A stretch of DNA of 64,000 nt from Mytilus galloprovincialis (taxonomy: Eukaryota; Mollusca; Bivalvia; Mytilida; Mytilidae), in NCBI RefSeq assembly GCF_965363235.1, contig NC_134847.1, positions 72,918,268 to 72,982,267 of the forward strand, read 5' to 3'. This document shows positions 935 to 4,066 of the stretch, in pieces; the stretch's first letter is position 1; the number at the start of each line of letters is the position of its first letter. A program made the translations under genes and the position numbers. Below the pieces are notes generated by a model, which did no database searches, was not told where the DNA came from, and worked only from the letters and a program-made list of their open reading frames with translations.

Positions 935-3359
935 ATGGGTCTAATCCCATGGCGTCTAAGGAAATACACATTTCAGAAAGGAAACAAGCCATATAATAAG
1001 GGGAAAAAATACAGAAATAAGACTTTACCTGCTGAAAAAGGCAAATTTGTGAGACTACCAAAAGACTTGTATGACTTAGTGACTAAATCTGTTCATAAAA
1101 AGAATGTTCAACTAATTCCTGCCTCTACAAAGTCAGCTCGCTTTCTAAGGCCGAAGCCTCCGACAAAAACAGAAGTTGAAAAATGTGCTGAAAATGAAAC
1201 AAAAACAGGGTAAGAATACTTTTTTTGTTATTAAGCTTTCAAAAATAATTAAACTTGCTTAAAAAAGCCATTTATAAACAACTATGAAGAAAAAGGCATG
1301 TGTCTTATATGCCAATTCTTTAAATGTGACATCTGAAGAAAATGCAAGCTAGGATTATACTTATTTTAAAATTTCTAGTCCTATATATATTTTCAAGAGC
1401 TAAATAATGCATGGTTTTTATATATAATATATATAAAAACACAGGCAAAGAAAAAAATATGCACTTTTGAGAGTACATTTGATCAAAAAGCTTATTTAAA
1501 GAAAACACTATTGTAAGGGAGGTAATTCAAAATAAAATTATTTTCACATTTTCCAAACTTAGTTTAACAAATAAAAAAACTAATTCACTTCAATTTTGGC
1601 AACATTTTTCAACTTCAGGTCAGAGAAAAATAGTTTTCGACTCCTTCGGATCAATGAACTTGAACAGATGTGGAATGAGGTTTTCATAGAACACAGACAA
1701 ATATCCCCTATGTGTACAGGGTTCATATCATGGGATTTAAGTGCAGAGCAGCAAAGAGGGGCTGCCTGGAGGGAAAAGGCAAGCTGCAATGAGTGTTCTT
1801 ACCATTCAAAAATGTTCAACCTTTACAATGAGGTGATCGCTAAGAAACGTGGTCGTCGAACAGCAGCTATTAATCTATCCATACAAGTCGCACTTAATCA
1901 TATAGCTATCAGCACAACTGGTCTACAGAAATTATTTCTTGGTTCTAATATACCAGCTCCTTCCACTTCAAGTATGCAACACAGTGCTAATGTTGTTTCT
2001 GAAATTATAGAAGAGTACAATCAAAAGGATTTGGTTCAGAAAAGAAAATTAATTAAGGAAATAAACATATTAAGAGGTGATAATCCTAATATTATTAACA
2101 TTCAGGCCGACGGAATGTATAATAACCCTATTTATTCCGGAATGGGTAAAACACCATTTCAACCAGCTACCCAATGTACATATAACATGTTAGAAAATAA
2201 TACTTATAAGCACAGTATTGTAAGCACAAGACAAGTGTCTAAGCTTTGCTCAAATAAGAGTGAACATAAAACAAAAACAAAAGTTAAATCTCACAAAGGT
2301 CACTGTTCTGCAAACATTGAAATGCATGACAGCATAGGCAGTGAGGAGCGATGGGCTAAAGACTGCTTGTTAGACCTGAAAAATGATGGTCTGGAAGTTC
2401 AAGAAATTACCACTGACCCTGACAGCAGTGCATTTAGAGCTGCAGAGTCTCTTTTTAAAGCTGGTACAACCAATACTCAGCCAATTCATTTTCTAGATAC
2501 AAGACATGTGTCCGCAAATCATAGAAATTTTATTAAAAAAATGTCAGGTCTGAAGGAAATAATGCCGGCACGATTAGTTTCAGAGAAAGATAAAATGCTA
2601 AAAAGGTTTGCATTAGATATGGCAGCACGTTGTCAGGCAGAGTACAATGCTGCCTTTGATAAATTCAATATGGACTCTGTACGGGTAAAAGTTCACCTAT
2701 CATATGCATGTCATGCTATAGTTTCTTGCTATCAGGGTGATCATAACGGGTGTACAAAATATTCCCTTGTTTGTTCAAATAGGAACAGTTTGAAGACATG
2801 GACTGAAAAATCAGCTTATCTGAAAAATAACTTTAAATTAAATAAATCAGAGAACACAGCAGCATTGTTACGTGAATGCGTAAAATATCGCCTTGGACCT
2901 ACCATGCTAAACCGTACATGCAAAAACACTAACACACAAAAAGCTGAAGCAACTAACCGTGCAATACGTGCAACTGTACCTAGCAATGTAACATTTACCA
3001 GAAACTATAAAGGAAGGGTACATACAGCTATACACAATGTAAATAATGGCCCTGGAGAATCCATCGTTAAACTCTGTAAAGCGGCTGGGGTTCCCATCGA
3101 ACCAGGAAGTCGTGCTGCCAGAGGTCTGAAAAATATTCAACAACACAATGAAAAACATAAATTATATAAGCAGTCAAAGCAGTACACAGATCAGAGATGC
3201 TCAAAAAAGCATGAACTATATAAAATATATGATGAGTATCAAGAGGAAAAAGACTATGAGAAAAACAAACTTTTACCGACAAAACGGCTGGCCGCAAAAC
3301 AGCCTCAAGAGTATTCGTTTGCCAAAAAACTCCGATCAAGACATGTTAAAAATAAATAA
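935..3359 (+). CDS. Mutator-like (MULE) transposase, two exons, copy 1
   Basis: Exons 935-1209 and 1619-3359 flank a 409-bp intron with a GTAAGA donor and a TTTTCAACTTCAG acceptor. The junction is phase 2 and gives a 671-aa protein plus stop. The long exon has no ATG at its upstream end, only a TTG inside the intron, so the ATG at 935 is the supported start. The N-terminus is short and basic (FQKGNKPYNKGK). A CxxC pair follows, then the transposase core: a first acidic motif ADGMYNNP near residue 256, a second TTDPDSS near 358-360, a His/Cys cluster (CYQGDHNGC), and TQKAE, whose Glu near 535 is a candidate third catalytic acid. This order fits invertebrate proteins annotated with a Mutator-like transposase domain (DDE superfamily), which cut and paste DNA at the TIRs. 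No break is seen. Confidence 0.88.
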
Positions 3360-3369
3360 ATTACCTGCA

Positions 3370-3828
3370 TCAGATAAGACAACACGGTAAATGATTATTT
3401 GTACACTGTTTTGTCCGTCTACAGAAAATTCTCTCTATGTTTATACTGTGCGACTCTAAAATCAGGTGCTCCGGTTTAATACATTTGGGGTTATGGCAAA
3501 GGTGTGAAATATCTAAAGGATCGCCGTTTGGAGAGAAACGGGGAAGATTTTCTTTTAATATTCTTTTATCTAGCATATAAGATAATCTGTGAGCTCTTTC
3601 AAGAGTTCTAGTGCCATCAGGCCAATTCATAACTTTTTTCCCATAGACCCCATGCTCCAAAGCTCCAACCCACACTGTACAGTCATAATTTCCATAATTT
3701 TTTTCACTTTTCTTAGACAAAGCTAAAGCCAATGCATTCCAAAATGATTCCATGTTGTTTCTGTAAAATGAAAACCCAAAAGGGGTCCGAAATTGGGATC
3801 CCAGGGAGGCTGAGGGGTGAATTCCCAT
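3370..3828 (-). CDS. I-PpoI-like His-Me finger endonuclease carried by the MULE, copy 1
   Basis: 152 aa, convergent with the transposase gene (10 bp between the two stops) and starting 10 bp inside the right TIR. The core SHLCHNPKCIKPEHL...N lines up with I-PpoI at exact spacing. H109 matches the catalytic His98, N130 matches metal-binding Asn119, and C111, C116 and H121 match the first zinc-site ligands. C50 is the likely fourth ligand (I-PpoI Cys41). A second Cys/His cluster (C136, C142, H146, C149) follows. All active-site residues are present, so it is probably a working DNA endonuclease, but this is not shown. The start is uncertain: on the minus strand a good acceptor (TTTTCATTTTACAG) lies just before Met26, so residues 1-25 may be intron or leader. 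Confidence 0.85.
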   Translation of the reverse strand: MGIHPSASLGSQFRTPFGFSFYRNNMESFWNALALALSKKSEKNYGNYDCTVWVGALEHGVYGKKVMNWPDGTRTLERAHRLSYMLDKRILKENLPRFSPNGDPLDISHLCHNPKCIKPEHLILESHSINIERIFCRRTKQCTNNHLPCCLI

Positions 3829-3837
3829 TATTTACCT

Positions 3838-4066
3838 TATAGGTTGCACTTGTGTAAAACCAGCAATGCAGTTTTCCATAGGAACTGCCTAAATTGCATA
3901 TGCAGTCACTCTTCATTCAGGAAGTTTTGAGGAGAATGTTATATTTCCCTGGAAAGGAGACATGCACTACTTTTTTTTGCACTAATAAAAACATATAGCT
4001 GTGCGGCATATTTTCAAGTTTTACTGCCCTCCATTTATAAACATTGCAGGTTCGCACTGAATTTTT
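3838..4066 (-). repeat. Right terminal inverted repeat, unit 1
   Basis: Reverse complement of 1-233. The endonuclease ATG lies just inside it, so this repeat is the likely place for the endonuclease promoter, by analogy with MuDR TIR promoters (inference). Confidence 0.9.

Follow-up and report, generated by a model that had tools for sequence, protein, structure and literature searches.

The first 20,584 positions of the window, by which we mean the whole stretch of 64,000 nucleotides of Mytilus galloprovincialis DNA that was analysed, are almost certainly occupied by a transposon multimer of the KolobokP type, to judge from a comparison with the published description of that lineage. The multimer consists of five tandem pairs of an internal region (INT) and a long terminal direct repeat (LTDR), written (INT-LTDR)5, with one inverted LTDR at the left. 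We assign it to KolobokP because the gene pair, the strands of the two genes, the length and ends of the LTDRs, the size of the monomer and the multimeric state all match the account in PMC9587614. KolobokP was described by Kojima and Bao in 2022 in bivalves and other animals, and the available portions of their paper give 228 families, autonomous and nonautonomous, in seven animal phyla, with bivalves the richest (PMC9587614). The available text of another report, which cites Kojima and Bao, mentions tandem-like sequences of bivalves that resemble Mytilus Kolobok elements (PMC12750733). A preliminary description of the same DNA had considered the association of such a nuclease with a transposon to be undescribed. 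This view does not survive the comparison, since in KolobokP the two genes are paired and arranged in just this way (PMC9587614), and what seemed a surprising pair of genes belongs to an already described transposon lineage.

Anatomy of the array

The content and orientation of the genes, the anatomy of the LTDRs and the structure of the array were established directly, and the coordinates of the features are collected in Table 1. The array has a period of 4071 bp, which holds across positions 214-20588; when the segment 214-16517 was compared with its own copy at an offset of 4071, no mismatch was found over 16,304 bp. Each unit of 4071 bp is made up of an INT of 3612 bp and an LTDR of 459 bp, and a monomer of the form LTDR-INT-LTDR measures 4530 bp. 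The five tandem units are base-for-base identical. The identity among them stops at 20588, and the right edge of the array is formed by an LTDR end and TATA, after which comes a flank unlike INT. All five direct LTDRs, the last one included, have TATA on either side; the left flank of the insertion lies beyond the edge of the window. The LTDR begins with GGTTGCACTTGTGTAAA and finishes with TTTACAAAGTGCAACC; apart from one indel, these termini are inverted copies of each other over 16-17 bp, of the type 5'-GG...CC-3' (GGTTGCACTT(G)TGTAAA). No relative, and in particular no solo LTDR, turned up when the unit and its proteins were compared by blastn and tblastn with positions 20589-64000 of the window; the best E values were 0.52 and 5.5.

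Table 1. Coordinates of the array and of the genes in its first unit
Feature	Positions	Strand	Remarks
Leftmost visible LTDR, partial, inverted, cut by the window edge	1..229	-	reverse complement aligns with positions 3842-4066 of the LTDR
INT of unit 1, 3612 bp	230..3841	+	TATA at start and end
Transposase exon 1	935..1209	+	open frame, joins exon 2 in frame; putative splice from frame and GT/AG only
Transposase exon 2, with the PF20700 domain	1619..3359	+	Pfam E 1.5e-45
I-PpoI-like His-Me (His-Cys box) nuclease, 152 aa from first Met	3370..3828	-	PF05551 E 1.8e-15; phmmer to I-PpoI E 0.0066
LTDR of unit 1, 459 bp	3842..4300	+	16-17-bp inverted ends
Unit 2	4301..8371	+	INT 4301-7912, LTDR 7913-8371; identical to unit 1
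Unit 3	8372..12442	+	INT 8372-11983, LTDR 11984-12442
Unit 4	12443..16513	+	INT 12443-16054, LTDR 16055-16513
Unit 5	16514..20584	+	INT 16514-20125, last LTDR 20126-20584; then TATA and non-INT flank

In the available description of KolobokP, LTDRs of about 450 or 660 bp flank INT, they have inverted ends of their own, 11-18 bp long and of the form 5'-RR...YY-3', insertions are accompanied by target site duplications (TSDs) of 3-5 bp, and autonomous families from oysters measure 4022-4748 bp (PMC9587614). The LTDR of the array falls in the class of about 450 bp, its GG...CC ends fit the 5'-RR...YY-3' form, and the 4530-bp monomer lies within the range of the autonomous oyster families. TATA stands at both ends of INT in KolobokP-1_MeMe as well. 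Common to both is also the combination of a transposase with a downstream antisense I-PpoI-like nuclease, and the multimeric form (LTDR-INT)n, here with five units. The array differs from KolobokP in its leftmost visible LTDR, which is inverted, whereas the LTDRs of KolobokP are described as direct.

The transposase and nuclease genes

The preliminary description had proposed convergent genes for a transposase and a nuclease, 10 bp apart, and the reading frames together with the Pfam matches PF20700 and PF05551 bear this out, the 10 bp lying between the two stop codons. It was also right in seeing a DDE-type transposon with an I-PpoI-like nuclease as its second gene, as indicated by PF20700, PF05551 and phmmer. 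It had further reported that both genes are free of breaks in five copies. The frames are indeed unbroken, but the copies do not amount to five independent tests; because the units are identical, they provide a single observation.

Joined at the putative splice, the two transposase exons encode 671 aa with no internal stop. The product matched PF20700, which bears the name 'Mutator-like transposase' in Pfam, with an E value of 1.5e-45. By eye on the translation, D256, D358 or D360, and E535 are candidate catalytic residues. A CCHC finger, which barely varies in KolobokP transposases according to the available text (PMC9587614), is not clearly complete by eye in the transposase of the array, where C302-x2-K305 is followed by H317/H320 and C321. 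C462, H467, C470 and C477, likewise picked out by eye, may constitute the other zinc finger, and inspection of the translation by eye led to no assignment of a literal C/DxxH motif. A PHROGs search with the transposase gave a best E value of 0.14. The structures predicted by AlphaFold without an alignment had a mean pLDDT too low for use, both for transposase exon 2 (39.9) and for the nuclease (32.3).

In a phmmer search of PDB sequences the five best matches of the nuclease were all I-PpoI, with E values from 0.0066 to 0.14 and about 40 residues aligned. With 152 aa the nuclease is similar in length to the solved chains of I-PpoI, which have 162-163. According to this alignment, and numbered from the Met, the nuclease keeps S108, H109, C111, C116, H121, E125 and N130, so that the residues H109, C111, C116, H121 and N130 of the preliminary description were correctly identified. 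H109 and N130 align with the catalytic H98 and N119 of I-PpoI, and C111, C116 and H121 with three ligands of its first zinc site; these active-site and zinc-site residues, with their matching spacing, are what the nuclease shares with the His-Cys box group. S108, H109, H121, E125 and N130 correspond to S97, H98, H110, E114 and N119, the residues given as conserved in the KolobokP nuclease in the available text (PMC9587614).

Eight zinc ligands can be proposed for the nuclease if five candidates chosen by eye only, namely C50 and C136, C142, H146, C149 or C150, are added to those of the alignment. The second zinc site would then be spaced differently from that of I-PpoI. For R61 of I-PpoI, inspection by eye points to a candidate outside the phmmer alignment, the Arg of TRTLER, which precedes the catalytic His by 35 residues. 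The setting is another difference: the I-PpoI gene is housed in a group I intron, the nuclease gene of the array in a DNA transposon, within its INT.

We also asked how unusual the length of the nuclease frame is; for this, 400 units were simulated under a first-order Markov model based on the unit, and the longest stop-to-stop frame of each was taken. The nuclease frame comprises 153 codons from stop to stop, against a simulated 95th percentile of 138 and a maximum of 181. Length by itself therefore does not settle the matter, whereas the family match does. The nuclease gene begins close to an LTDR: just 13 bp separate its first ATG (3828-3826) from the boundary at 3842. From this short distance we infer that transcription of the nuclease very probably begins within the LTDR, which would probably contain the promoter. 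If the transcript does start there, losing that LTDR would silence the nuclease.

Four scans of viral and genome contigs with the nuclease and the transposase did not confirm a relative in any case (24, 7, 69 and 66 stretches with the peptide pattern, none of which passed tblastn). Phages and plasmids yielded nothing but remote HNH proteins, in 353 phage records, of which 20 were listed, and in six plasmid records, with E values up to 0.1 and identities all below 60%, and in PHROGs the nuclease matched families of HNH endonucleases (best E 3.4e-9). The phage, plasmid and PHROGs matches reflect the wider HNH group and nothing closer.

The inverted LTDR and alternative readings

The left end of the array differs from the rest. 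Positions 1-229 align to the reverse complement of the LTDR (3842-4066) with one substitution and five indels, and this arm meets the INT of unit 1 at the exact LTDR boundary, at TATA. A seed taken from the arm occurs once and its reverse complement five times; the inverted arm is found on the left of copy 1 only, and copies 2-5 have a direct LTDR in that place. Because the arm is a part of an oppositely oriented LTDR, only the first unit resembles an element with long terminal inverted repeats (TIRs). The earlier idea that both genes lie inside the long TIRs of the element must thus be abandoned, the supposed TIR being a partial 459-bp LTDR that is inverted only to the left of copy 1.

Could the element nevertheless be a true Mutator-like element (MULE), with TIRs of about 230 bp, that acquired a homing endonuclease, as its first classification as a MULE implied? 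MULEs have long TIRs at both ends and TSDs of 8-11 bp. Like them, the array encodes a DDE transposase that is matched by PF20700, and the Mutator-like name of that family speaks for this reading, as do the inverted flanks of about 229 bp around unit 1 and the zinc fingers of the Kolobok type, which could be assigned only partly in the transposase. However, four of the five units are without the inverted left arm, no duplication of 9-11 bp was seen by eye around the direct LTDRs, and the inverted repeat covers just part of a 459-bp direct repeat which has short inverted ends of its own and flanking TATA. This anatomy matches that of KolobokP in the available description (PMC9587614). The Mutator label comes here from the name of a Pfam family, the GG...CC ends and TATA flanks fit KolobokP better, and we regard a true MULE as highly improbable. 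The array rather illustrates how the inverted flanks within one window can pass for the TIRs of a MULE.

The perfect identity of the units has one of three explanations: the array is young, or its units are kept alike by exchange, or it is a product of assembly. That assembly created the array, or just the inverted arm at its left, is in our opinion decidedly unlikely, even though 16,304 bp without a single difference at an offset of 4071 is what such a product might show, and the left arm, right where the window begins, has an error-like pattern with five indels against one substitution. On the other hand, the right end of the array is an LTDR end and TATA followed by different sequence, the left arm joins INT precisely at the LTDR boundary, and multimers of the form (LTDR-INT)n-LTDR are common in KolobokP, including in three genomes picked for their completeness, as far as the available text goes (PMC9587614).

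If the KolobokP multimer is taken as real, its inverted left LTDR may be new for this lineage. The available portions of PMC9587614 call LTDRs direct only and describe no inverted ones, among the 12 of 20 term matches listed, and within the literature searched KolobokP is named in no other paper. Where it meets INT, the inverted LTDR has an end of the right-end type, TTTACAAAG, whereas plain inversion would have put TTTACACAAG there, with one base more. On the basis of this single base, the TTTACAAAG end would fit a flip of the LTDR on the spot, through exchange between its two ends; against this, the many indels of the arm and its place at the window edge could stem from a poor consensus.

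Mobility, array growth and neighbouring repeats

Mobility, the activity of the nuclease, its cutting site and the origin of the array are matters that we infer. Following Kojima and Bao, the transposase would recognise the short inverted ends of the LTDR and move monomers or solo LTDRs. The array would have grown probably by unequal exchange between the LTDRs of sister copies, or else by integration of an LTDR-INT circle, either recently or with its units being kept alike. Both models of growth come from Kojima and Bao (PMC9587614). The nuclease would cut within the LTDR or at its end, and the neighbouring LTDR would be the template for repair; such a cut as the start of the exchange was likewise proposed by these authors, who themselves call it speculative in the available text, and abutted LTDR ends, as they point out, could make a semi-palindromic target (PMC9587614).

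Whether the nuclease is the trigger of array growth seems to us an evenly balanced matter. Perhaps it is a passive passenger without any role in mobility or growth. Its activity is predicted from sequence, its second zinc site is, by eye, spaced unlike that of I-PpoI, and some KolobokP families are apparently without a nuclease in the available description (PMC9587614). Yet the alignment shows that the His and Asn of the active site are kept, together with three ligands of the first zinc site, and most KolobokP families encode both proteins, which neutral decay of the nuclease would hardly explain (PMC9587614, available text). We consider a mere passenger unlikely, albeit to be kept in mind. 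A clean KolobokP multimer with unbroken genes, as found here, is useful for asking whether the nuclease drives the growth of arrays.

What could the nuclease cut? If two LTDR ends were to abut with TATA between them, the result would be a perfect palindrome of 20 bp, GTGCAACCTATAGGTTGCAC. We scanned for targets with the I-PpoI site CTCTCTTAAGGTAGC, as printed in the available part of PMC6294500, and with its palindromised form. The best score in the linear unit was 10/15 against the I-PpoI site and 10/16 against the palindromised form. The junction of a virtual LTDR circle reached 12/16 against the palindromised form, with the same 4-bp centre, and 9/15 against the true site, a score equalled at two other places in the circle. 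Agreement at six of eight independent half-site positions has, by arithmetic, a chance near 0.004, or near 0.04 if GG, which Kolobok-type ends share, is left out of the count. Elsewhere in the window 12/16 occurs at at least three places and 11/15 at at least six, and because equal scores are found there, the likeness of the palindrome to the I-PpoI site is a weak lead. There is a slender chance that the LTDR end is itself the homing site, and that cutting there flips LTDRs as well as multiplying them; we raise this because of the 20-bp junction palindrome and the right-end type of end on the inverted LTDR. Concrete substrates for testing growth driven by the nuclease are thus available, namely the LTDR in inverted orientation and the palindrome at the LTDR-LTDR junction.

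Several other repeats occur in the window. A segment of 565 bp is present twice without a difference. One copy, at 20931-21495, overlaps the 3' end of a reverse transcriptase frame of 1143 aa on the minus strand (21102-24530, PF00078), and the other, at 24675-25239, lies immediately past the 5' end of that frame; next to the KolobokP array, the region 20931-25239 thus has the appearance of a retroelement partially copied head to tail. Direct repeats of about 500 bp (27258-27763, 31004-31469 and 31468-31963), 77-96% alike and each beginning near ATGGGGACG(G/A)AGTCCCC, are arranged around 3.2 kb without long frames. We considered these repeats as a possible old KolobokP copy and set this reading aside: the longest frame between them has 105 codons, there is no match to the two proteins, and their ends are unlike LTDR ends. 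A tandem repeat with a 16-bp unit, GTGCCGATTTGACTAG, lies at 33836-33961, and its near reverse complement is arrayed at 33048-33134. Farther on, positions 45581-64000 contain duplicated blocks of several kb with 80-86% identity, in which a gene for an LRR-TIR (Toll-like) receptor (47602-49908) and a similar frame (59905-62181) are located.
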